Positions 37,092-51,813 of a stretch of DNA of 64,000 nt are shown one piece after another. The DNA is taken from positions 2,436,001 through 2,500,000 of the forward strand of contig NZ_CP049258.1 in NCBI RefSeq assembly GCF_011046735.1. Direction: 5' to 3'. Position 1 is the first letter of the stretch, and each line of letters opens with the position of its first letter. The notes beneath the pieces are model-generated. The model was not told where the DNA came from and made no database searches. It saw nothing but the letters and a program-made list of their open reading frames with translations. A program made the translations under genes and the position numbers. This DNA is from Nordella sp. HKS 07 (lineage in GTDB: Bacteria > Pseudomonadota > Alphaproteobacteria > Rhizobiales > Aestuariivirgaceae).

Positions 37092-40000
37092 TTAATAGCA
37101 GGATAGAGTGCGGGCTTTGATGCTGTCTTCGAGGACCTGGATTTCAGGCCCCAAATGCTTGCCACGATAGACAACCGAGGTTTCGTGACGGGCAAATTCG
37201 CCAGTTCGGTGGGCGCTGAACCAATTGAACGAGCCGACCGAAAGCAACGTGTCGTCCGCCCATACCATCTTGCTGTGAAGCTGTTCGACTGCATGGACCT
37301 TCACGCCGATCCCAGCCAATGTTTCTTTGGCTTCTGCGAAAATATCCTGTCCTGGTTTGCTTCGGGCGCGGGTCAAATGGGGATCGGCGTAGATCTCCAC
37401 CTCGACGCCGCGTTTGTGAGCTGCGGTGATGGCGGCAGTGAAGCCCATCTGTTCCATGGTCGCGATGTTGATCCAGGGTGAGACGATGCAAAGCCTGCGC
37501 TGGACGCTCGCGAGTTCCTTCAGCAAGAAGGCGTCATGCTGGGCCGCGTCGCGCAGGGTTTCGATCGCTCGTTTCCCCGGGGCCAGATCAGTTCGTGATG
37601 GCACCTCGAAAGCAATCTCGTTCGCACTATCCTTCCAGAGGAAGCGCGCGAGGACGGATCGCGGGCTGCCTGGCGGTGCGGAAGCCAGCGTATCCATGTC
37701 TCCAAAGACGAGAAAGGCGTCTTTCGCGCGCGAGACTGCCACGTTGAGCATGCTGGGAGAGAGGTCGATAAAACCGCCATCGGCATGCTTCGAATAGACC
37801 GGCGAAAAGATGACCACATCACGCTCGGCGCCCTGCAGCGCATGAACGGTGCCGATGGTCATGCCGTGTCGGCCGATGTCGATGCCTTGGGCGGCACAGG
37901 CATTGCGGATTTCGCGGACTTGACGGCCGAAGGGCGTGACGATTCCGACGATGTCTTCCAGACGCTTGCCATAGTGCGCCTTCAGCTCGTCGGCATTGGC
38001 GGCGAGCCAGGCAGCGATGGTTTGCGCCTCGAGCGAATTGAATCGGCTGCCGCCCGCTGACATCGCCATGCCGTTGACATGAAGATAGCCCATCGGACGT
38101 AACCCGCCATCCTTGACCGGGCCGCGCATGGGTTGCAGTGTTCCCTTGTAGCAAAGGTCGTTGCAGAAGCCGATGATTTCGTCACGGCAGCGCCGGTGCT
38201 CGAAGAGATAGAGGCCCCGTTCCAGCTCTGGATGGGGATAGAAGCGGCAGGCTGACTGCGCGAGCCGCATCGTGCTTCCGCTGCGCGATGTAAGACCGAC
38301 CATACTAAGCGCCTGTAAAGCTTCTCGTCCTCCTTCGGGGGGCAGAAGCCCCGCCTCGATCAAGTTGCCGGTGTCGACGGCGGCGGTCAGCACGGAGATA
38401 GGTTCGATCTGCTGGATATCCCCGATCACCAATGCCCGTTTTGCCAGAGCGAAGGATGGTCCCGCGACTTCCGGCAGCACCTGGCCGGCCTCGTCCACGA
38501 TCAGAAGATCGATGTGATTGAACAGGTATTCCGTGCGATAGCTGCCCGAAGCGTTGTCACGGCAAGTCATTTTCCTCGGGAGGGTCGCAAAGGTAGATAC
38601 GGCACACGGCGTCAGCATCATCCGGCGGGACCACATCGGCACGACCATGCTGCGATCGTTGCCGCCGCGGCCGCTTTGCTGCACCCGGTGGAGTGCCGGC
38701 AACGCCTTCTCCATTGCCAGCAGCCAGCGGCCTTCCCAGTAATGGGTGGCGAGTAAGAAGAGACGGAATCGCACGAAACGATCGGCCGCGCGGTCGAACT
38801 CCAGCAGATCGGTGCCATCCTCTGCGTTCGCGAGCAGCGTCCTGGCCAGCGTGCGCCATTCCTCTTCCCGTGCCTTTTGCTCGGCAACGGCTCGTTCGGC
38901 CTGGTTATAGGCTTCCGTAGCCTCTTTTACCCGCTCCGCGGTATCGCGCGAATGCTTCTTCAGTCGGTCGTCGATTGCCCCGACACGTTCGGCTACCGAA
39001 AGCGCATTAGGTGCACCCGCGTCGCGCAGAAACACTCGCGCCCGCAGGACTCGCTTGCGTGCCACCGGCGGCAGGAAACCGAATAGCGAATACAGCATCG
39101 GCTCAGCCGCAAGCCAATCTTCCCATTTGTGCAGAAGTGCGTCGACTTCGGCCTTTTCGGCTGTGTTGCGCTCCATCGCGTCGCGGCATCTGGCAAACGC
39201 GGCTTCCGGATTATCCCCCAGAATCCGCCGGACAGCATTTTCCGCCTCGCGGCATCTTGCGTGAACCTCATCGGCCCGCTTGAGCAATCCGCTTTCCTCT
39301 TGCAGATGCTGATGCAGTTCAGCAACAACCGCTGCCACATTCGTCTGCGTCAGGTCCGGGAAAGCTCTCCGAGCAGCCTCCAGATAGGTCGCACGTGCGT
39401 GGCTCAGATATTCCGGTGTTTCGAGTTTCTGGAAAAAGCGTTCGGTCTGGTATTTCGTCGAAGCATCCGCCTCTTTGCTGACTGCGGCGAGGAACAAGCC
39501 GAAGCTTTTGATCTCCGGCAGCCAGCGCCCCGCAAAGGGGCCTTCACCTTGCCCGAAGTCCTTTCCGAAGGCGTCGATGATATTCGTGACGGCCTGATTG
39601 TTGGTGGATGCCGCGACGATCAACGGTGGATTGGCCTGCTCTAACGCGGCACGCACCCATAGCCCGGCGATCGCCGACAGGAGCATCGTCGTCTTGCCGG
39701 TGCCGGGTGGACCGTTCACAGCAAGAATCTCGCCGTCACGCGCCGCAGCCAGATGTGCAAGGACTTCGCGCTGACGATCGGCGACGGGGAATTCATCGTT
39801 GGAATGACCGAGGCGCTCCGCCAATGGGAAGGGGGCTTGGCGCCCGGGTTCGATGTTGCACGGAGCCCTGCGTGCGAAATTCGCCAGAAGCGGGCTCTCC
39901 GGCTGTTCGTGGATCAAGGTATCGCTCAGGGCGAGGATCTGTTTCACCGTCTCTGCCGCCTCGGTCGCAGATCGAATTAGCCCGTGGCCGACGATTTGGT

Positions 40001-40538
40001 ATTCTGGGTCCGAGGCTGGCCAGTTGCCGCCGACTTCATCCATCAATTTCCGCCAATGGTCCTCATGGCGTTGCCAAAGATCCGGGTCTTCTTCTTTGAC
40101 CGAAAAGGGCTGGGCCGTCAGAAAGCTGTCGAGATCCGCGGCGCGGCCGATGGAGAAGGCGCCGCGCGCGAGCGGATCGAGGATGTCTCGTGCAATTACG
40201 CTGTGACTGGGCAGGATTCGGCCCTCGCGCGTGACCTGTGCTTCGGTCACGACCGGGGTGACTTCGAGCGGAAGGCCGTCACGACGCGATTGGCTATGCC
40301 GGCTCTGCCGTCGAACATGGAGCGGACGGTAGCTGACCGCGATACGCCACACATGCTCCCGCACCTTGTCAAAGAGAAAATCGACGGCCTCTTGTCTAAG
40401 AATACCGGTCTCGACTTCCTCACGGGACAGGCTGTGAAACTCCTTGAGCATCTTGCCGTTCAGGCAGGCATCTCCGATCGCGCTATCGGCGACTGCCGAG
40501 CGCCAGTAATTCAGAATGGCGGCATCCGTCTTGGCCAT
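37092..40538 (-). CDS. SF1 helicase fused to PLD-family nuclease, MkoC-like (type II Mokosh)
   Basis: A 1148-residue protein. Walker A N-G-P-P-G-T-G-K-T-T-M at ~275-285, Walker B L-L-I-V-D-E-A-G-Q at ~678, V-I-G-D-I-Q-Q-I-E-P at ~710 and the late motif N-V-A-V-S-R-A-K at ~935 define a COG1112/Upf1-like SF1 helicase, with a long charged helical insertion (~390-610). The C-terminal ~160 residues form a phospholipase-D domain with one HKD motif, L-H-S-K-M-V-W-A-D-D...G-S-F-N-W at ~1085. Known type II Mokosh phage defence consists of a single protein of exactly this architecture. It sits in an island with vsr and DUF3644 remnants, which supports a defence role. Other helicase-PLD proteins cannot be excluded. 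Confidence 0.75.
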   Translation of the reverse strand: MAKTDAAILNYWRSAVADSAIGDACLNGKMLKEFHSLSREEVETGILRQEAVDFLFDKVREHVWRIAVSYRPLHVRRQSRHSQSRRDGLPLEVTPVVTEAQVTREGRILPSHSVIARDILDPLARGAFSIGRAADLDSFLTAQPFSVKEEDPDLWQRHEDHWRKLMDEVGGNWPASDPEYQIVGHGLIRSATEAAETVKQILALSDTLIHEQPESPLLANFARRAPCNIEPGRQAPFPLAERLGHSNDEFPVADRQREVLAHLAAARDGEILAVNGPPGTGKTTMLLSAIAGLWVRAALEQANPPLIVAASTNNQAVTNIIDAFGKDFGQGEGPFAGRWLPEIKSFGLFLAAVSKEADASTKYQTERFFQKLETPEYLSHARATYLEAARRAFPDLTQTNVAAVVAELHQHLQEESGLLKRADEVHARCREAENAVRRILGDNPEAAFARCRDAMERNTAEKAEVDALLHKWEDWLAAEPMLYSLFGFLPPVARKRVLRARVFLRDAGAPNALSVAERVGAIDDRLKKHSRDTAERVKEATEAYNQAERAVAEQKAREEEWRTLARTLLANAEDGTDLLEFDRAADRFVRFRLFLLATHYWEGRWLLAMEKALPALHRVQQSGRGGNDRSMVVPMWSRRMMLTPCAVSTFATLPRKMTCRDNASGSYRTEYLFNHIDLLIVDEAGQVLPEVAGPSFALAKRALVIGDIQQIEPISVLTAAVDTGNLIEAGLLPPEGGREALQALSMVGLTSRSGSTMRLAQSACRFYPHPELERGLYLFEHRRCRDEIIGFCNDLCYKGTLQPMRGPVKDGGLRPMGYLHVNGMAMSAGGSRFNSLEAQTIAAWLAANADELKAHYGKRLEDIVGIVTPFGRQVREIRNACAAQGIDIGRHGMTIGTVHALQGAERDVVIFSPVYSKHADGGFIDLSPSMLNVAVSRAKDAFLVFGDMDTLASAPPGSPRSVLARFLWKDSANEIAFEVPSRTDLAPGKRAIETLRDAAQHDAFLLKELASVQRRLCIVSPWINIATMEQMGFTAAITAAHKRGVEVEIYADPHLTRARSKPGQDIFAEAKETLAGIGVKVHAVEQLHSKMVWADDTLLSVGSFNWFSAHRTGEFARHETSVVYRGKHLGPEIQVLEDSIKARTLSCY

Positions 40539-41505: not shown

Positions 41506-41978
41506 TTAGCGCACTCGTTTGGAAACTGAAGCACCTGTAAACTCTGTTGAGTACCCTAACTCCCGTAACCAAATGGCGGTGTCTTGCAGGATATGATAGA
41601 TGCTTGGTGCATTCTTGCCACGAAGGCAATACTCCCAAATTACGAGACTGCGCCAGCCAAGTGCGGCTATGGCTTGAGTATTCTATTTTCTCGCTCCTTG
41701 GTTCGCGCAATCTTCGGATGCCAGTACGACTCGTTTGATGACGGCAGCCTCGCTGCTGCGCAATCATGACCATTCCAGTAGCATCCGTGAATCCATATCA
41801 CAGCCATAAACTTTGGCATGACTAAATAAGGGCGCCCGGGGAAACAATTGTTATGGAGCAAATAGCGAAAACCCATTGCGTGCAGGCGTCGCCTAACTGC
41901 AATTTCCGGGCGAGTGTCGCGATCCCGAATAGAAGCCATAATATGGCTGCGGACCGCAGGAGACACAGTATCGATCAT
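41506..41978 (-). pseudogene. vsr: vsr, very short patch repair endonuclease, decayed
   Basis: From ATG 41978 the frame reads as Vsr: V-S-P-A-V-R-S-H-I-M-A-S-I-R-D-R-D-T-R-P-E, then G-R-P-Y-L-V-M-P-K and W-I-H-G-C-Y-W-N-G-H-D-C. It stops at 41667 after R-I-L-K-P; from 41667 another frame continues A-A-L-G-W-R-S-L-V-I-W-E-Y-C-L-R-G-K to a stop at 41506, giving the full ~156-residue length. The catalytic Asp of P-D-L-V is Tyr here and the H of W-H-G-H is Asn, so activity was lost beyond the frameshift. Vsr repairs T:G mismatches created by a cytosine methylase; no methylase gene is nearby. Confidence 0.85.
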
Positions 41979-43622: not shown

Positions 43623-43699
43623 TGGCGCACCCGACAGGATTCGAACCTGTGACCTCTGCCTTCGGAGGGCAGCACTCTATCCAGCTGAGCTACGGGTGC
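43623..43699 (-). tRNA. tRNA-Arg (CCG)
   Basis: On the minus strand GCACCCG (5' acceptor, 43699-43693) pairs with CGGGTGC, followed by discriminator G and an encoded CCA (43625-43623). The D-arm TAGCTCAGCTGGATAGAG, anticodon arm CTGCC-CTCCGAA-GGCAG and T-arm GGTTCGAATCC are standard; the anticodon at the middle of the loop is CCG, reading CGG arginine codons. The 3' end of the gene faces the accessory island, the usual geometry for integration at a tRNA. Confidence 0.95.
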
Positions 43700-44315
43700 A
43701 TCTGAAGAGTGGGCGACATATAGCCGAAGCCGGAGGCGCGCCGCAACCTGTCCACGTACGATTCCAGCGAGAGCTCGGCGCGCGCGTCCAGGAAGAGATC
43801 TGACGCTGCCTCCGCCCATCGGCAGATGGCAGTCGGCATATCCGCAGTCCGGCTGCCTCATTGCCCTTGTATTCGTGGGCTGGACCGCAGGATACCAGCG
43901 TCGGTGAACCGGCGCCGGAGAGGCAAGCATGTCGAATTTAAGTATTCCCCGTTCTTCGTATCGGCAAATTCCCTGCTCCGCCCCGATCTTTGGCGTTAAT
44001 CCATTGATATTGTTGGGCCTAAAGAATTTTTTTGCGAAAATACCCTGCAAATGCCTGCAAATCCCTGCTCTTTCCCAGGTCATCCGGAACGCCGGAGGAT
44101 GGGCGCGCCGGCGGCAAAAACGAAGCCCCGACAGGCCTGCGCGGTCGGAGCCGCAGCCGATGCCGCAGCCGCCTGACAAGCGGCCCCGTCGACCCGAGCC
44201 GGATTTCGGGGCGAACAAGACCCCCGCCCCTGTCACCTCATACATATCCCTGATTGAGGGTTCCCCTTCCCGCATCCGGTGCTACCTTACGCCCAAGATA
44301 GTGTTTGGGGATCCG
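43700..44315. other. Intergenic region with short tandem repeats
   Basis: About 600 bases between the tRNA and the cyclase gene. No separate gene is supported, although the cyclase frame stays open back to 43929. Around 44038-44070 CCTGCAAAT is tandemly repeated (CCCTGCAAATGCCTGCAAATCCCTGC), a type of intergenic sequence met in Hyphomicrobiales. The tRNA promoter should lie just right of 43700 on the minus strand. Confidence 0.4.
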
Positions 44316-47300
44316 ATGGCGGCTAGACCATCTAAACCAGGACCGGCCGCGCAAGCGCGGTCGGGCAAGGCGGATTTGGCCTCCGCCGGCGAACGCCGGC
44401 AGGTCACCGCTTTGTGCTACGACCTCGTCCAGTCCACCGACCTCATGCGCCGCCTCGATCTCGAGGACTATCAGGACCTGATGACCGCCTTCCACGCCGC
44501 CGCGGCCGAGGCGGTCACCCGCAACCGCGGCGTCATCGCCGATACCTATGGCGATGGCGGCATGGCGATCTTCGCCTCGCCCACCGACCCCAAGGACACC
44601 GCTTCCCTCGCTGTCGAAGCCGGCCTCGCTTTCATCGAAGCCTGCCAGAAGCGCTCGGCCGGGCGCGGCGCCATCCCCCTCGAAGTGCGCATTGGCGTCG
44701 CCACCTCGATGGCCATCATCGCCCAGGCCCCGGCCGGCCAGGGCAGCCTCACGCCGGAAAGAGTCACCGGCGTCGCCCCGGCACTGGCCGCCAGGCTGCA
44801 GACGGTAGCGCGGCCCAACGCTGTCGTCGTCTCGCAGCTCACCCGCCAGCTGGCGGGGCGCTCCTTCTCCTTCCGCTTCCTCGGCAAGCAGACGCTGAAA
44901 GGCTTCGAGCCGGAAAGCGCCTGGCAGGCGCTGCGCCATAAAATCCAGCTCGACCGCTTCTTCGCCTTCGGCAAGCTCAGGGCCCGCATCGTCGGGCGCG
45001 ACCGCGAATTCGCGCAGTCGCTCGCCTGCTGGGAAAAAGCGCTGGCCGGCCACGGCAATGTCCTCCTCCTCGAAGGCGAGGCCGGCATCGGCAAGTCCCG
45101 CCTCCTGCATGAGATCCGCAAGGCCGCCCGCCCGACAAGGCGCCGCCTGCTCCTCTTCCAATGCGCGCCGGGCGGCGTGAATGAGACCTTGCATCCGCTG
45201 CTCCAGGCCTTGACCCAGAATGCCGGCCAGGCCGGGCGCCGCATCACGGCCGCCCGCGTCGAGGCGCTGTTTCGTCGCCAGGGCATCACCGACCGTGAGG
45301 TGACGGCCCTGTTCTCCTTTCTCTTAGGTGCTGAGGATGCCGGCGATCTGGGCCTCAAGGGCGCCTCGCCGGAAGCCATCCGCGAGAAGGTGATCGAGGC
45401 CGCCGAATACTGCCTCGCCAAGCTCGCCGCCGACGGCCCGCTCCTCATCGCCATCGAAGACGCCCATTGGATCGACCCGACATCATCGATGATCCTGGCG
45501 GCGCTGGCGCGGCGCGTGGCCAACCATCCCGTGCTGCTCATTGTCACCTCACGTAAATTCGATCCCCAGCTGCGCCCCGGTAATGGCGAGACCAGCCTCA
45601 TCGCGCTCACAGCGCTTGACCGCGAGGCGACGCGCCAGGCCTTGGAGCAGAGCTGGCCGGAAGCCGCACAACTCCTGCCCAAGGCGCTGCTTGAGCCCAT
45701 CCATGATCTCACCAACGGCAATCCGCTCTTCGTCGAGGAGCTCAGCCAGTGGATGAGCGAGAATCAGGGCACGGTGACCGAAACCCTGACCAGGAGCACC
45801 ACCATGGCGCGCGGTGCCGCGCTGGAGAGCATCCTGGCGGCCAGGCTCGCCAATCTCGGCCCCGCGGCGGATATCGCGCGTTATGCAGCGGTCGCCGGCC
45901 GCGATGTCGATTTCTCGCTGCTCTGCGGCGTCCTGCCGGACCTCGATACCGGCATCATCCTCGATTCGCTGAAGGCCTTGGGCGATGCCGGCATCCTGTT
46001 GCGCAACCGCATCCCCGGCTACCCGTCCTATTCCTTCCGCCATGCCTTGATCCAGGACACGATCTACAACAGCCTCCTGCGCAAGACGCGCCAGGCCGTG
46101 CATGGCCGCATCTTCCATCTCGTCACCGACAACCGCGATCTCGCCCCCTGGATCGGCTCCTCGGCGCTCGCCGACCATGCCGAGCGCGCCGGCTTCATCG
46201 ACGAGGCGATCGGCGCCTATGTCGAGGCCGGCAAGGAGAACTCCGCCCATTCGGCGCTGGCCGAGGCGAAGCAGCTGCTCGACCATGCTTTGGCGCTGGT
46301 GGACGCCGCCGAGCCTGAGGACCAGGACCGGCTCAAGCTCGCGGTCATCGCGGCGCTGTGTCCGGTGCTCACCGGCATCGAGGGCAAGAAGTCGCCGCGC
46401 GCCGCTGAGCTTTACGAGCAAGGCGTGGCGCTGGCGCGGCGCCAGCGGCCGGAGGATCAACCCAAGCTCTTCCCGGTTTATTGGGGCTGGTGGTTCACCG
46501 CACCCGATTTCACCGCCTGGCTCGGCCGCACCCGCGCCATCTTCGCCGATCTCAAGGATGTCGACGATGCCGAGGTCCAGCTGCAGACGCGCCATTGCGT
46601 CTGGGCCATCGATTTTAATGTCGGCCACCACGAGACCTGCATCGAGGCCGTTGATGCCGGCATGGCGATTTATGACGAAGGCCGGGGAGCGGAGAATTTC
46701 ACGCTGTTCGGCGGCCATGACGCCAAGGTCTGCGGCCTCGGCCAGCGCGGCTTGTCGCTGTGGATGACCGGGCAGGGCAGTGAAGCCGTGGACTCGGTGG
46801 AGCAATCGGTCGCCTGGGCTGAAAAGATCAGCCATCTCGGCAGCTTGGCGCATGCCTATGACATCGCCGCCATGCTGCATCGCTACCGGCGCGATTTCGA
46901 GGCGCTCGCCGTCATCATGGCGCGTATGCGCGAACTCGCCGAACGGCATGGCCTGCCGGCGCTCCTGGCGAAGACCATGATCTTCGACGGCTGGAGCCTC
47001 GGCGTCACCGCGGATCCGCGCGCCGGCCGCGTCATGATGGAAGAGGGGCTCGCCCTTCAGGCCAAGGTCGACACGCCCGAGGATCTACCCGTCTATAACG
47101 AGATGCTGGCCGAGGTGCTGGGCCTCGCCGGTGATGCCGAGGAAGGCTTGCGGCACGTCGCCGCCGCGGTCGCCGCGGTCGAGGAAAGCGGCCATACCTA
47201 CTGGCTGGCGCAACTGCATCACCGCCGCTTGCGGCTTCTGGCGCAGATCGGGGCGGCACCCGAACTCCTGATGGACGCCGCCGAGAGCGCCTTGCGCATC

Positions 47301-47480
47301 GCGCTCGAGCAGAAAGCCGTCACCTTGCTGATCAGCACCTATCGCACCGTCGTGGCCCTGGGCTTCTCGCAGGAGCTTCTGGAACGCTACCGCCCGCATG
47401 TCCACGAGGCGGAAAAGATGGTGGAGCCGGACAGCATTCTCTTCGCCCATCCCGAACCACCGCCCGATGCATCGAGGTGA
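44316..47480 (+). CDS. Class III nucleotide cyclase-AAA ATPase-TPR signalling protein
   Basis: About 1054 residues from ATG 44316; an open extension to 43929 is rejected because it has the character of intergenic repeat sequence. N-terminal cyclase domain (~25-210): L-C-Y-D-L-V-Q-S-T-D-L with a metal Asp and Y-G-D-G-G-M-A-I-F with the second, as in active class III cyclases. ATPase domain (~235-560): Walker A L-E-G-E-A-G-I-G-K-S-R-L, Walker B L-L-I-A-I-E-D-A-H-W-I-D. The rest is helical, TPR-like. Such proteins couple cyclic nucleotide synthesis or signal-gated assembly to regulation. The next gene starts inside its last codons, linking it to the YcaO-TfuA block. Confidence 0.85.
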   Translation: MAARPSKPGPAAQARSGKADLASAGERRQVTALCYDLVQSTDLMRRLDLEDYQDLMTAFHAAAAEAVTRNRGVIADTYGDGGMAIFASPTDPKDTASLAVEAGLAFIEACQKRSAGRGAIPLEVRIGVATSMAIIAQAPAGQGSLTPERVTGVAPALAARLQTVARPNAVVVSQLTRQLAGRSFSFRFLGKQTLKGFEPESAWQALRHKIQLDRFFAFGKLRARIVGRDREFAQSLACWEKALAGHGNVLLLEGEAGIGKSRLLHEIRKAARPTRRRLLLFQCAPGGVNETLHPLLQALTQNAGQAGRRITAARVEALFRRQGITDREVTALFSFLLGAEDAGDLGLKGASPEAIREKVIEAAEYCLAKLAADGPLLIAIEDAHWIDPTSSMILAALARRVANHPVLLIVTSRKFDPQLRPGNGETSLIALTALDREATRQALEQSWPEAAQLLPKALLEPIHDLTNGNPLFVEELSQWMSENQGTVTETLTRSTTMARGAALESILAARLANLGPAADIARYAAVAGRDVDFSLLCGVLPDLDTGIILDSLKALGDAGILLRNRIPGYPSYSFRHALIQDTIYNSLLRKTRQAVHGRIFHLVTDNRDLAPWIGSSALADHAERAGFIDEAIGAYVEAGKENSAHSALAEAKQLLDHALALVDAAEPEDQDRLKLAVIAALCPVLTGIEGKKSPRAAELYEQGVALARRQRPEDQPKLFPVYWGWWFTAPDFTAWLGRTRAIFADLKDVDDAEVQLQTRHCVWAIDFNVGHHETCIEAVDAGMAIYDEGRGAENFTLFGGHDAKVCGLGQRGLSLWMTGQGSEAVDSVEQSVAWAEKISHLGSLAHAYDIAAMLHRYRRDFEALAVIMARMRELAERHGLPALLAKTMIFDGWSLGVTADPRAGRVMMEEGLALQAKVDTPEDLPVYNEMLAEVLGLAGDAEEGLRHVAAAVAAVEESGHTYWLAQLHHRRLRLLAQIGAAPELLMDAAESALRIALEQKAVTLLISTYRTVVALGFSQELLERYRPHVHEAEKMVEPDSILFAHPEPPPDASR

Positions 47481-48606
47481 CCGCGACGGCCGCATCGGGC
47501 CTGCGGCGCCGGAGTTATTGCGCAGCCTTCTGCAGCGCCTCGGAGACTTGGGAATCACGCGGCTCGGCGACATCACCGGCCTCGACCGCATCGGCATTCC
47601 CGTCATGCAGGCGGCGCGGCCGCTGTCGCTGTCCAATTCCGTGAGCCAGGGCAAGGGCGCCACGGTGGAAGTCGCCGCCCTTTCGGCCATTCTCGAAGCG
47701 GCGGAATGTTTCTTCGCCGAACGCGTCGCGCATTTCACGGCGACGACCGCCGCGGCGGAGGCTCTCGCCGTCGCTCCCGCCACATTCGCGCGCCATCTGA
47801 CGGAAGACTGCCCGCCATCCTGGCAAGGCCAGAACATCGCCTGGGTCGACGCCGAGGACCTGGTCTCCTCTTCGAAGGCGTACATTCCGATGGGCCTCGT
47901 CCACACCGCCTATGTCCACCCGCCCGACCGGCAGGATGCCTGGTTCAAGGCCTCAACCAGCGGCCTTGCGGTGGCGGGCACACGTCACGACGCGGTGCTG
48001 CATGGCCTGCTCGAATGTTTCGAGCGCGACGCGCTGTCACGCGCGCAAGCGACCCACGGCTTCTTCCAGCGCCGCCGTATCGATCCCGCCACCATCGCGG
48101 ACCGGGATCTCAACGATCTTTTGGAGAAGGTGGAGGGCGCCGGCCTTCTGGCCGGGCTCTGGCAGGCTGAAGCATTTGGCGGCGTCCCGGTCATCTGGTG
48201 CCATCTGCTCGAAGCGGATTCGCAGAGCGGCACGCTCATTCCCTTTCCCGCCGAAGGCTCCGCCGCCGGCCTCGATCCAGCCAGGGCGGCCTGCCGCGCC
48301 ATCAGGGAAGCGGCGCAGGCGCGCCTTGCCGCGATATCGGGGGCGCGCGAGGACATCACGCGGCTTTCCTATCCGCGCTATCCCGACTGGGACATGATCG
48401 AGGCGCATCGCCGGTTGCTGCGCGACGGCCCGCGCCCGATGCGCTTCGAGTCCCTCTTCACCGGGACAGGGGAGGACTGGCTCGCCCGTCTCCTGGAGCT
48501 GGGACTTTCATCCATCCTCGTCGTCGATCTCGAGACCGCGCCCTTTGCCGATCTCGCGGCCGTCAAGGTTCTCGTTCCCGATCTCGCCCCTTTGGACGAG
48601 GCGTGA
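47467..48606 (+). CDS. YcaO-family ATP-dependent cyclodehydratase/thioamidation protein
   Basis: 379 residues from ATG 47467, overlapping the cyclase gene by 14 bases. YcaO marks: S-N-S-V-S-Q-G-K-G-A-T-V-E-V-A-A-L-S-A-I-L-E-A-A-E near ~58-80, and G-L-L-E-C-F-E-R-D-A-L-S near ~180, which form the ATP/Mg site, followed by G-V-P-V-I-W-C. YcaO enzymes activate peptide backbone amides with ATP, forming azolines or, together with TfuA, thioamides. The TfuA gene follows 4 bases later, so backbone thioamidation is the expected chemistry. The C-terminus lacks the proline-rich end of azoline-forming TOMM YcaOs, which agrees. Confidence 0.88.
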   Translation: MHRGDRDGRIGPAAPELLRSLLQRLGDLGITRLGDITGLDRIGIPVMQAARPLSLSNSVSQGKGATVEVAALSAILEAAECFFAERVAHFTATTAAAEALAVAPATFARHLTEDCPPSWQGQNIAWVDAEDLVSSSKAYIPMGLVHTAYVHPPDRQDAWFKASTSGLAVAGTRHDAVLHGLLECFERDALSRAQATHGFFQRRRIDPATIADRDLNDLLEKVEGAGLLAGLWQAEAFGGVPVIWCHLLEADSQSGTLIPFPAEGSAAGLDPARAACRAIREAAQARLAAISGAREDITRLSYPRYPDWDMIEAHRRLLRDGPRPMRFESLFTGTGEDWLARLLELGLSSILVVDLETAPFADLAAVKVLVPDLAPLDEA

Positions 48607-48610
48607 TCGC

Positions 48611-49366
48611 ATGACAGCGCCGTTGCCGGTCGTCTTTCTAGGTCCGACGCTTTCGGTGGCGGAGGCAAGTAATATCGCCGATGCCGTCTATCTTCCACCC
48701 GCCACGCAAGGCGCGATCTTGACCGCGGTGCGCCGCCACGATGCCAGCGCCATCCTGATCATCGACGGTGTGTTCCAGTCCGAACCGGCCGTCCGGCACA
48801 AGGAAATCCTGTGGGCGCTCGACCGGGGCATCGCGGTTCTGGGGGCCGCGAGCATGGGCGCGCTCAGGGCGGCCGAGCTCGATCGCTTCGGCATGGTCGG
48901 TGTCGGCCTCATCTATCGCTGGTACCGGCGCTGGCCGGGCGCCCCCGATGATGCTGTTGCGGTAGTGCACACGCCACCGGAGCTCGGAGCCCAGGCGCTC
49001 ACCGTCGCTCTGATCGACCTTCTGATGACGATCAGGCGCGGCAGCCGGTTGGGGGTCATCGACGCCGGCCAGCGATCCCTGCTGGAGAAGCAGGCGCGCG
49101 CGCTCAATTTCCGCGACCGCACCTTGGCCAATGTCGCCGCCGCGGGCCGGCTCGAGGCGGGCCGGCTGGCGGCCTGTCTTGTCGAACAGAAGAAACAGGA
49201 CGCCGTCGCGGCACTGCGCCATCTCGGCAAGGTCAACCCGCCGCCGCGCCGGAACAAGTTCGTGTGGACGACCAATTTCGTGCGCGACCTCGAGCATGCG
49301 AAAATCCCGCTGCCGGACGATGCCACATTCCCAACCGACTTTCCCCATGGTAGGTTTGTGCCATGA
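48611..49366 (+). CDS. TfuA-like protein, YcaO partner
   Basis: 251 residues from ATG 48611. It shows the TfuA core P-V-V-F-L-G-P-T-L near the start, I-I-D-G-V-F-Q-S-E-P-A-V-R-H-K-E-I-L-W-A-L and G-A-A-S-M-G-A-L-R-A-A-E-L, the family's hallmark. TfuA (named from the trifolitoxin cluster of Rhizobium) works with YcaO to install thioamides, in methanogen methyl-CoM reductase and in peptides such as thiovarsolins; it is thought to recruit or deliver sulfur. Overlaps the metallopeptidase start by 4 bases. Confidence 0.9.
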   Translation: MTAPLPVVFLGPTLSVAEASNIADAVYLPPATQGAILTAVRRHDASAILIIDGVFQSEPAVRHKEILWALDRGIAVLGAASMGALRAAELDRFGMVGVGLIYRWYRRWPGAPDDAVAVVHTPPELGAQALTVALIDLLMTIRRGSRLGVIDAGQRSLLEKQARALNFRDRTLANVAAAGRLEAGRLAACLVEQKKQDAVAALRHLGKVNPPPRRNKFVWTTNFVRDLEHAKIPLPDDATFPTDFPHGRFVP

Positions 49367-50562
49367 GGCGCCAGAACGGAGATTTGTCGGTCACCGAAGA
49401 GGATGGGGCGTCCTCCGGGCTCGGCTGCCGTTTCCTCCTTTATCCGCAAGCCCCCTATCTGTCGGGTTATGACAAGCCCGAGCCGGTCTGGATCTCGACG
49501 CCGCCCGACCGGCTGCAACCCGGCCCCGCCAACCGGCGCATGTATGTGCGCGACCCGCTCCTGGAGAAGGAGCCTTACGAATTTCCCTATCTTCCCCCTT
49601 TTGTTGGCGCGACGCATCCGCCGGCCGAGGCCGGGCCCGACGGCCATTTCGATCAGCTTCAGCCCGGCAGCCGGCAATTCATCGCGGCGCATGCCTTCGC
49701 CTCGGCGCAGCGCGTCCTCGATATCTTCGAGAGTTTTCTCGGCCGCGAGATCTCGTGGTATTTCGCCGACACCTATGAGCGGCTCGAGATCATCCCCTGG
49801 GTCGAATGGCGCAACGCCCAGTCGGGCTTCGGCTTCCTCGAGCTCGGCGTCGACCGCGACGGCAATGGCGAGGCTTCGCCCTTCGCCCTCAATTTCGATG
49901 TCATCGCCCATGAGGTCGGCCACGCCATCCTGTTCTCGCTTTACGGCGTGGCGGAGAGCGGCTTCGGCGATGGCGATTTCGGCGCCTTCCACGAGGCCAA
50001 TGCCGATCTGATCTCGCTCATCTCCTTCATGCATTTCGATTCCGGCCTGGACCGTCTGCTGCGCCATTGCCAGGGCAATCTTCTCGTCCTCAACGAGCTC
50101 AACCGCATCGCCGAGCTGACCGGCGACCGCCAGATCCGTCTCGCCAGCAATGCCCGTCGCCTGAGCGAGGTGACGGGCGAGATCCATGACCGCTCGCGGC
50201 CCTTCACCGGCGCCGTCTTCGACACCATCGTCGACGGCTTCCACTGGCGCCTTGCCGAACGCGGCCTCGCCGACGAGGCGCTGGTCGAGATCGACATCCG
50301 CGAGGTCGACGCAGCCCAGATGCGGTCCATCTCGCAATTCACCGCCGAGGCCTTCCGGGCCAGGCCCTATCTGTTCAAGACGGCGCTCATCGAAGCGCGT
50401 GACGAGGTGGCGCTGGCTTTGGCACAGACCTGGCCGCGCCTCGACCCGAACGCGCTCAGCTTCATGGGGGCCGCCGACATTCTATGCGATCGCGGCGCCG
50501 CGCAATCGGCGGCGCTGGCTCAGCGCTTCGAGACCAATTTCCGCTGGCGAGAGATTTTGTGA
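49363..50562 (+). CDS. Gluzincin-type zinc metallopeptidase
   Basis: 399 residues, ATGA-coupled to tfuA. H-E-V-G-H (183-187) and E-A-N-A-D (211-215) reproduce the thermolysin-clan zinc site: two His ligands, catalytic Glu, third ligand Glu in E-x-x-x-D. There is no signal peptide, so it acts in the cytoplasm. The N-terminal ~100 residues (rich in Pro, with R-M-Y-V-R-D-P-L) and the helical C-terminus have no named domain that I recognise. Gene order suggests that it processes the YcaO/TfuA product, as leader-cutting proteases do in RiPP pathways; this is inference. Confidence 0.8.
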   Translation: MRRQNGDLSVTEEDGASSGLGCRFLLYPQAPYLSGYDKPEPVWISTPPDRLQPGPANRRMYVRDPLLEKEPYEFPYLPPFVGATHPPAEAGPDGHFDQLQPGSRQFIAAHAFASAQRVLDIFESFLGREISWYFADTYERLEIIPWVEWRNAQSGFGFLELGVDRDGNGEASPFALNFDVIAHEVGHAILFSLYGVAESGFGDGDFGAFHEANADLISLISFMHFDSGLDRLLRHCQGNLLVLNELNRIAELTGDRQIRLASNARRLSEVTGEIHDRSRPFTGAVFDTIVDGFHWRLAERGLADEALVEIDIREVDAAQMRSISQFTAEAFRARPYLFKTALIEARDEVALALAQTWPRLDPNALSFMGAADILCDRGAAQSAALAQRFETNFRWREIL

Positions 50563-50584
50563 GGGCAGTTTCAGGGAGAAGGCC

Positions 50585-51301
50585 ATGAGTGACGACTATC
50601 ACAGACCGACCTATACTTCGGCGAATGCCACGAACGAGCCGACCAATGCCGACGGCCACTATAACCCGACGCAGGTCCGCCTCTACGGCATTCCCGGCAA
50701 GCCGGGGCTTGTCTTCAGTGGACCGAAGGCGGCCATTTCGTCTTTCGACGGCGCGGCGAATATCCGTATTGATCTCAGCGAGCCCGACAAAGCCAGGCAG
50801 GACATCGATCATGTGATCGAGGTCCTGAAGGCCTTGCGGAAGGATCCGAAACGCCAGACCCTCGAAGCCCGCGCGGCGTGGCCCGGACCGATCGTCATCC
50901 CGGTCGGCAGTACCTACCAGCTGGGATTGACCATGAAGCTGTTCGGCACCGTCTATCTGGGCTCCGAATCGAAGGGTGAGAGCACGCTCTCCTCCGGCAT
51001 CATGTTCGGCTATGCCTATGAAGGGCATACTTATGAATTCCCCAAGCCGAAGATCATGCTCGTGCCGTCACAGCCGCTGGTCGGCCGCATCCCCGATGAC
51101 GATTCGGGCTATGACGCCAAATATGACGAAGGCTATCGCGTCTGGCTGGTCGACAAGCTCGATCAATGCGTCGAGGTCGAGATCAACCAGGGCTTCGTCG
51201 ACGAGATCGTGCTTGAAGCGAACATGCCCGGCAAACGCTCGCCGACCGCCTATCGGGCGGCGATGTCGCTCTCTCATCGCGGCGGCAGGCTTTCCGAATA
51301 G
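50585..51301 (+). CDS. Unrecognised 238-residue protein in the YcaO-TfuA operon
   Basis: ATG 50585 follows AGGGAGAAGG, 22 bases after the peptidase stop. The first ~30 residues are Asn/Thr/Tyr-rich (Y-T-S-A-N-A-T-N-E-P-T-N-A-D-G-H-Y-N-P-T-Q) and probably flexible; the rest alternates short strands (L-Y-G-I-P-G-K-P-G-L-V-F, W-P-G-P-I-V-I-P-V-G-S-T-Y) with one helix, and contains only one Cys. No signal peptide or membrane segment. It may be the protein that the YcaO-TfuA pair modifies, or a scaffold; I do not recognise a family. Its end overlaps the convergent GNAT gene by 28 bases. Confidence 0.7.
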   Translation: MSDDYHRPTYTSANATNEPTNADGHYNPTQVRLYGIPGKPGLVFSGPKAAISSFDGAANIRIDLSEPDKARQDIDHVIEVLKALRKDPKRQTLEARAAWPGPIVIPVGSTYQLGLTMKLFGTVYLGSESKGESTLSSGIMFGYAYEGHTYEFPKPKIMLVPSQPLVGRIPDDDSGYDAKYDEGYRVWLVDKLDQCVEVEINQGFVDEIVLEANMPGKRSPTAYRAAMSLSHRGGRLSE

Positions 51302-51813
51302 AGCAGGCTGGATTTCATCTCGATGGCCGGGAGCGTCACGTCCGCGGTCAGCTGCAGGCTCATCTCCCGGCTGCGGGCGAAGCCGAGCGCCCGGTAGAAG
51401 CCTTCGGCATTCAGGCTCGCATGGCACTCGAATGCCGTCATCCCGGCGGCGCGAGCGGCGTCTTCGCACCATGCGTAAAGCCGGCGCCCCAGTCCGTGCC
51501 GGACTCTCTCGGGATGGACAGCGAAATGCCTTATATGGGCGAGGCCCGGCATCACCTCGTGTGAGCCGGGCCGATCGACGCTCCAGCCGCCACAGGCGAC
51601 GAGCCGGCCTGTTTCCTCCTCGATCACCGCATAACGCCCCGACGCGAGAAGGGTGAGATTGGCCTTCGTGATCGAGGGCAGAGCTCGCACCAGAAGGTCG
51701 GCCGGATAGGCCTCCGCCATCAGCGCCGCGTAGGAGAGGCCCAGCAATTCGCTCACTTTCGCCCGGTCTTCCGGTGTCGCCACCCGCAACTGGTCCATGC
51801 CGCATCTGAGCAT
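51274..51813 (-). CDS. GNAT-type acetyltransferase
   Basis: About 179 residues from ATG 51813 (an ATG at 51798 is equally possible; no strong ribosome-binding site decides). The acetyl-CoA site H-I-R-H-F-A-V-H-P-E-R-V-R-H-G-L-G-R-R-L is typical, with C-H-A-S-L-N-A-E-G-F-Y-R-A-L-G-F as the closing part. The frame stays open much further upstream through an intergenic repeat, which is not coding. Substrate unknown. Confidence 0.83.
   Translation of the reverse strand: MLRCGMDQLRVATPEDRAKVSELLGLSYAALMAEAYPADLLVRALPSITKANLTLLASGRYAVIEEETGRLVACGGWSVDRPGSHEVMPGLAHIRHFAVHPERVRHGLGRRLYAWCEDAARAAGMTAFECHASLNAEGFYRALGFARSREMSLQLTADVTLPAIEMKSSLLYSESLPPR

Follow-up and report, generated by a model that had tools for sequence, protein, structure and literature searches.

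Five neighbouring genes at positions 44,316–51,301 of a 64,000-nucleotide stretch of the Nordella sp. HKS 07 genome (contig NZ_CP049258.1, positions 2,436,001–2,500,000; hereafter the window) encode a sensor/switch protein, YcaO, TfuA, a zinc peptidase and a protein of 238 residues. These were analysed as a putative pathway resembling those of ribosomally synthesised and post-translationally modified peptides (RiPPs). With a probability of about 0.62, judged from comparative and predicted-structure evidence, the 238-residue protein would be the precursor, its folded domain serving as leader, its C-terminal tail as core for YcaO and TfuA, and the peptidase releasing that tail. Comparison with related loci shows a conserved five-gene unit, a precursor-like anatomy of the fifth product, a predicted thermolysin fold in the fourth and a swapping of tails on a common domain, and the 238-residue protein is the most informative conserved member of the unit.

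All five genes were found on the forward strand at the coordinates given in the original prediction. Genes 1 and 2 overlap by 14 bases, genes 2 and 3 are 4 bases apart, genes 3 and 4 overlap by 4 bases, and 22 bases separate genes 4 and 5; the first three junctions are as that prediction had listed them. Relatives were collected from named genomes by searching with an alignment of the peptidase; of the 244 that this gave, the best 80 loci were kept. All five families were present at 80/80 of these best loci, which shows that the set is no chance grouping, and the lack of conservation with YcaO-TfuA that had been named beforehand as a refutation did not occur. The kept loci are alphaproteobacterial by name, except two titled ‘Proteobacteria bacterium’ and ‘Bacterium’. 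At four Microvirga loci (L088, L099, L101, L102) the peptidase gene is oriented towards the other four genes and still adjoins the precursor gene.

Broader samples were searched with the peptidase profile. At order level it matched 31 of 397 genomes (E ≤ 1e-10), which split into 21 genomes (23 loci) scoring at least 440 bits and 10 scoring 65 bits or less, the latter being excluded with their neighbourhoods unchecked. TfuA adjoined the peptidase at 23/23 of the strong loci and the precursor did so at 21/23, and at the remaining two the contig ends less than 400 bases from the peptidase. The precursor itself was detected in 11 of 297 order-level genomes at E ≤ 0.001. With the threshold set to E ≤ 1e-30, the peptidase was found in 8 of 385 genomes of a class sample and 7 of 398 of a phylum sample, where every match belonged to the same class. 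Among the 72,556 records of a plasmid collection 124 matched the peptidase, 115 from Rhizobium and one from Nostoc, the only match in the collection outside alphaproteobacterial genera. Two plasmid records that carry all five genes were viewed with their annotation; the precursor is a ‘hypothetical protein’ in one, and the incomplete gene table of the other has no gene at its position.

The 238-residue protein had been described as an orphan, a label that it loses as a conserved member of the unit found at every kept locus. It has no Pfam family at cut-off, and the weak Pfam matches of the precursor, Imm1 (0.056) among them, were rejected (7 families, each in 1–2 of 71 members). NHLP and Nif11 models did not match the protein (Pfam, NCBIfam), its 71 family members (Pfam) or 13 repeat-type domains (NCBIfam). 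The AlphaFold check that had been proposed returned an AlphaFold2 model with a beta-rich domain and a less confident C-terminal stretch (mean 75.9; predicted local distance difference test (pLDDT) 65, 53 and 52 in the last three blocks), for which no PDB match was obtained at E ≤ 0.001. Across 71 sequences, residues 213–238 carry 2.92 bits/position, compared with 1.84 for residues 1–210, and the domain stretch 136–160 is equally conserved (2.93 bits). Tail residues kept in at least 90% of sequences are Asn213, Pro215, Gly216 (96%), Arg218, Tyr223, His231, Arg232 and Gly234 (92%). Seven Rhizobium/Sinorhizobium loci (L062, L063, L066, L070, L074, L078, L150) retain the N-terminal half of the tail without the HRGGRL end.

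A second YcaO-TfuA-peptidase-precursor locus was found in the same genome (G000:C1:1716001-1735000, near 1,725,000; L016:9152-14379), where the homologue of the 238-residue protein has a (YSGGKA)n tail. TfuA at this second locus is long (446 aa); a gene for a DeoR-type regulator lies upstream and a 163-aa gene downstream. Other repeat units in this sister branch are SGANLG, GRSMM-T, GAKVS, SGAKV, GSKVS, RVSGA, SVRGA, SRVSG, GGKVG, SDLVGR, GMNV, SRAVMA and SRSGG-containing units. Repeat tails consist of 3–12 tandem 4–7-mers and occur in 33 of 130 precursor open reading frames (ORFs), a number that includes duplicates from places taken twice; the distinct loci are 20, of which 16 belong to genomes and 4 to plasmids. 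Across the 16 distinct genome loci, pairwise codon differences between repeats add up to 1099 synonymous and 288 non-synonymous ones, counts that are not mutually independent and in which the non-synonymous share is lowered by the selection of arrays on amino-acid similarity. The many synonymous differences disfavour recent slippage and show that conservation acts on the peptide unit. Single-tail proteins aligned to the repeat-tail domains in hhalign with a probability of 98.9% (E 1e-17), a result that speaks for the domain alone because the repeat-type rows had been trimmed before their tails. The two branches thus share a homologous domain that carries different tails.

Tail type also follows the peptidase tree, in which one branch (99/93) parts 83 single-tail from 17 repeat-tail rows. 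Tail labels were assigned manually, ‘single tail’ taking in the seven loci with an altered end; the tree excludes duplicate loci as well as L100, whose peptidase frame is interrupted, and L126, where the contig ends soon after the peptidase, was assigned to no tail group. Three substrates had been considered in the original prediction (the 238-residue protein, a precursor elsewhere or a host protein), and tail conservation, the repeats and the peptidase tree favour the first.

A conserved short ORF beside the unit, proposed earlier as a check, did not emerge. No neighbour family occurred in more than 12 of the 80 loci (ORFs of at least 40 aa, 60-bit linkage; those below 40 aa not clustered), and a separate short precursor was rejected on this result, although a tiny one below that length may exist. 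The two families that reached 12 loci stand at varying positions and on both strands. DNA similarity to the nearest relatives is about 80% over 44222–51302 for L027 and 44220–51303 for L028, a span that opens shortly ahead of gene 1 and closes at the gene 5 stop; that it ends with the unit also speaks against a separate short precursor. The window, L027 and L028 further have in common the tRNA-Arg upstream and the gene that follows the unit in the window, which by eye encodes an acetyltransferase, and the chromosomal site is therefore old. Between the unit and the acetyltransferase gene, L027:8943-13550 (L028 in the same place) holds about 4.6 kb that is absent from the window, with genes that by eye resemble an MFS-type exporter, a cysteine desulfurase and a CoA ligase, and several tandem ORFs of about 21 aa (MKLKLIRKKPV...); this is possibly a separate small-peptide cluster. 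Other small genes 3' of the precursor differ by branch (L021:8929-9606 on the reverse strand, L022 and L024; L047-L051 and L100).

Alternatively, the 238-residue protein could be a docking scaffold, a helper for YcaO and TfuA acting on an unlinked precursor or on another protein of the cell. Some YcaO enzymes do act on proteins (McrA, PMC5589413; uL16, PMC13063428), and genome G627 has an unlinked YcaO. We regard a scaffold as quite unlikely, however: it leaves unexplained the tandem, synonymously diverged C-terminal repeats and the match of tail type with peptidase clade, and the neighbour search gave no other family as a partner in more than 12 of the 80 loci.

The peptidase has the HExxH motif and downstream Glu within a predicted thermolysin fold, as expected of clan MA (M4/M36), and matched Pfam Peptidase_M4 at 0.055, below the cut-off. 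An earlier claim of intact catalytic motifs was confirmed for the peptidase; in the cyclase domain of gene 1 the Asn is replaced by Ala. A thermolysin-type cut in each repeat was considered and given no weight, since every unit does contain Val, Leu, Met or Tyr, but a bulky hydrophobic residue would also occur in most random 5–6-mers. The highest 19-residue Kyte-Doolittle mean among the five proteins is 1.51, and this absence of strongly hydrophobic stretches fits a cytoplasmic site for all of them. YcaO aligned to M. jannaschii MJ1094 (6pe3, 3.7e-13) and TfuA to its solved relative 6xp8 (1.1e-26). The two genes are adjacent here, as in thioamidated RiPP clusters, and both are present at all 80 named loci.

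From this evidence we infer the following order of events. The folded N-terminal domain would dock on the enzymes as an oversized leader, which is plausible because the E. coli YcaO acts on a protein, uL16, whose tertiary structure it recognises (PMC13063428). YcaO and TfuA would then swap a backbone amide oxygen for sulfur in the tail, the presumed core, most likely at Gly216 or Gly234, and the cytoplasmic thermolysin-fold peptidase would free the tail by one cut here and by many in tandem-repeat tails. The STAND-like ATPase with its cyclase-homology domain might toggle the pathway on and off, which is the weakest step. The product would probably act inside the cell or leave by a general route, given that no exporter and no second short precursor were found conserved beside the unit.

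Several points weigh against a precursor with a modified and released tail. The 80 loci, being the best of 244, are biased toward the window's type, and the choice of arrays bears on the repeat counts as stated above. A helix is drawn by AlphaFold2 at residues 220–233, and the tail may therefore be not fully disordered. When the window is compared with L027 and L028, the ratio of non-synonymous to synonymous substitution rates (dN/dS) is 0.22–0.27 in the tail and 0.10–0.13 in the domain core. By this estimate the tail is under purifying selection, yet no stronger than the domain core, and because the pairwise values give it no extra constraint, the wide comparison and not the L027/L028 pair carries the case for the tail. 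The match between tail type and peptidase clade may reflect joint inheritance only. The unit SRAVMA is mostly without Gly, which disfavours glycine as a universal site, and two loci (L127/L170, L140/L161) have Arg-rich non-repeat tails. These plain tails, together with the many Gly- and Lys/Arg-rich units, would suit modules that bind nucleic acid, membrane or partner enzymes in a protein neither thioamidated nor cut; the constant company of YcaO, TfuA and the peptidase at 80/80 kept loci speaks against such modules, which we consider very unlikely.

Also adverse are peptidase-precursor pairs that stand apart from YcaO and TfuA. On four Rhizobium plasmids a repeat-tailed precursor accompanies the peptidase, and neither YcaO nor TfuA is encoded within 6 kb or on the rest of the record; three of the four have an annotated adenylate/guanylate cyclase gene just upstream, and tetratricopeptide repeats (TPRs) were found in the single one scanned. 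Of 148 genomes from one genus, inferred to be Rhizobium, 25 have the plasmid-type peptidase at E ≤ 1e-258; this count comes from a peptidase search, the precursor having been seen in the four plasmid copies. No YcaO lies within 100 kb of the peptidase on the same contig in any of these 25 genomes, and in G627 the YcaO sits on a different contig. All 25 encode YcaO and TfuA elsewhere, and TfuA was found in 20/20 genomes with a more distant peptidase, presumed to be of the five-gene type, and also in 18/20 genomes without the peptidase (controls searched for TfuA, not YcaO). TfuA matches per genome were three or four in the 20 with the distant peptidase and at most two in the 20 without; among the 25, one genome had three (one partial) and the others at most two. 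A dedicated in-trans partner for the Rhizobium pairs was rejected as not specific: TfuA is common in peptidase-free genomes too, and none is therefore demonstrated. The peptidase-precursor pair may be an older core, with YcaO-TfuA acting in trans or dispensable there.

Gene 1 comprises a cyclase-homology domain (Guanylate_cyc, PF00211, 2.7e-8), a STAND-like AAA_16 ATPase (3e-20) and a long C-terminal part without a Pfam match; the TPR units once read into it were matched by no Pfam model at E ≤ 1. Its NCBIfam match is TIGR03903, ‘TOMM system kinase/cyclase fusion protein’ (3.2e-104), aligned over positions 271–1246 of 1267, but with 350 bits of the 706 required and without the N-terminal kinase part it falls outside that family. 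The transition-state Asn of cyclases is needed for full activity. Both metal Asp residues and the Arg are retained in the window and in 81 of 82 aligned cyclase domains, whereas the Asn is present in 14 and absent in 68, the window included, which thus lacks one residue of an active class III nucleotide cyclase. With the Asn missing in most aligned domains, second-messenger control is doubtful, and the domain would rather be a nucleotide-sensing one or a remnant. The earlier proposal of a modify-and-cut pathway under a nucleotide cyclase therefore keeps its first part, a conserved unit potentially capable of modification and cleavage, while regulation by the cyclase is weak.

The AAA_16 switch and the weak similarity of the cyclase domain to Pycsar cyclases (PycC, 1.1e-11) also accord with a regulated, immune-like conflict system, in which the STAND-like ATPase would sense a threat and unleash the peptidase on the 238-residue protein, the freed tail being toxic or signalling and the thioamide a stability mark or incidental; the plasmid pairs with a cyclase gene just upstream in three of four cases are of the same tenor. 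PADLOC models, however, matched none of the other four proteins at E ≤ 0.01, no effector model among them, so that Pycsar defence is not indicated; the tails of the single-tail branch are conserved rather than diversifying, and near relatives share the chromosomal site. We judge a conflict system unlikely.

If the precursor reading is extended beyond the window, the loci could represent a class of thioamide peptides that is widespread in Alphaproteobacteria, with folded-domain precursors, interchangeable tails, a dedicated intracellular thermolysin-fold peptidase and a STAND-type switch, one branch making a conserved tail of about 26 residues and the other multi-copy products of 4–7 residues; this whole proposal is tentative, at slightly less than even odds. 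Genome mining mostly seeks short precursors, and one of 150–250 residues would escape it for that reason. If true, substrates would be supplied for many proteobacterial YcaO-TfuA pairs now without known products, a new peptidase type would join RiPP maturation, and rhizobia and marine Alphaproteobacteria would offer short peptides open to direct testing. In the literature covered, no paper was recognised as describing the precursor or the peptidase, although tables of the large survey PMC8120280, available in part, may hold some of the loci.

Table 1. Positions in the window of the five genes and of features within their products.
Feature	Coordinates	Strand	Remarks
Gene 1, sensor/switch protein, 1054 aa	44316..47480	+	kinase-less relative of TIGR03903
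Cyclase-homology domain, residues 27-198	44394..44909	+	PF00211 2.7e-8
Gene 2, YcaO amide-activating enzyme, 379 aa	47467..48606	+	PF02624 2.6e-54; 6pe3 aligned over residues 19-298
Gene 3, TfuA, presumed sulfur-delivery partner, 251 aa	48611..49366	+	PF07812 7e-40; 6xp8 1.1e-26
Gene 4, thermolysin-fold (M4/M36-like) zinc peptidase, 399 aa	49363..50562	+	without hydrophobic signal-like stretch
HEVGH zinc-binding motif of peptidase	49909..49923	+	
Gene 5, proposed precursor, 238 aa	50585..51301	+	present at 80/80 named loci; homologous to repeat-tailed proteins
Folded beta-rich ‘leader’ domain (putative), residues 12-212	50618..51220	+	AlphaFold2 model
C-terminal tail, proposed core peptide NMPGKRSPTAYRAAMSLSHRGGRLSE, 26 residues (213-238)	51221..51298	+	conserved, low pLDDT

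The genome around the window is a single contig of 7.18 Mb. The tRNA-Arg(CCG) lies at 43623–43699, just upstream of the unit, and this stretch is also kept upstream of it in L027 and L028. Further upstream, a 1148-aa helicase-like protein with a phospholipase-D-like C-terminal part (37092–40538) and a Vsr-like endonuclease fragment (41667–41978) were recognised by eye; they are perhaps the remains of a defence island.

Among known systems, the nearest NCBIfam relatives of both enzymes are the models of McrA glycine thioamidation by the methanogen YcaO-TfuA pair, both below cut-off (YcaO, TIGR03266, 146 bits of 365; TfuA, NF033432, 163 bits of 235). In that system the substrate is a large enzyme and no peptidase is known to take part. 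Gene 1 is similar to the kinase/cyclase fusions (TIGR03903) of Burkholderia thiazole/oxazole-modified microcin (TOMM) clusters, but here the kinase part is lacking, the score is half the cut-off and TfuA is present. The thiovarsolin leader is short, whereas the folded domain here has about 200 residues. The thiovarsolin pathway (VarA/VarY/VarT, Streptomyces varsoviensis) shares YcaO, TfuA and a variable number of precursor repeats, from no repeat up to five around one YcaO-TfuA pair, but as far as the available part of PMC6511847 describes, it belongs to Actinobacteria and its cluster has no specific protease, unlike the neighbouring thermolysin-fold peptidase found here. An APR/GPR core of the VarA type is absent from the window tail and from the repeat units listed, which places the locus outside the thiovarsolin group. 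Azole RiPPs such as MprE/MprC have a folded NHLP leader that is engaged by the YcaO enzyme (PMC12455567, in part), a likeness to the proposed precursor; theirs is NHLP with azoline chemistry, and no NHLP or Nif11 match was obtained here. Maturation by metalloproteases is common in RiPPs (M1, M16, M50, M61, M79 and M103; review PMC10885120), and the word ‘thermolysin’ is absent from the main text of that review. In kind, the locus would work like thioamidated RiPP pathways such as that of thiovarsolin, with a precursor class and a peptidase that appear to lie outside the described families found.

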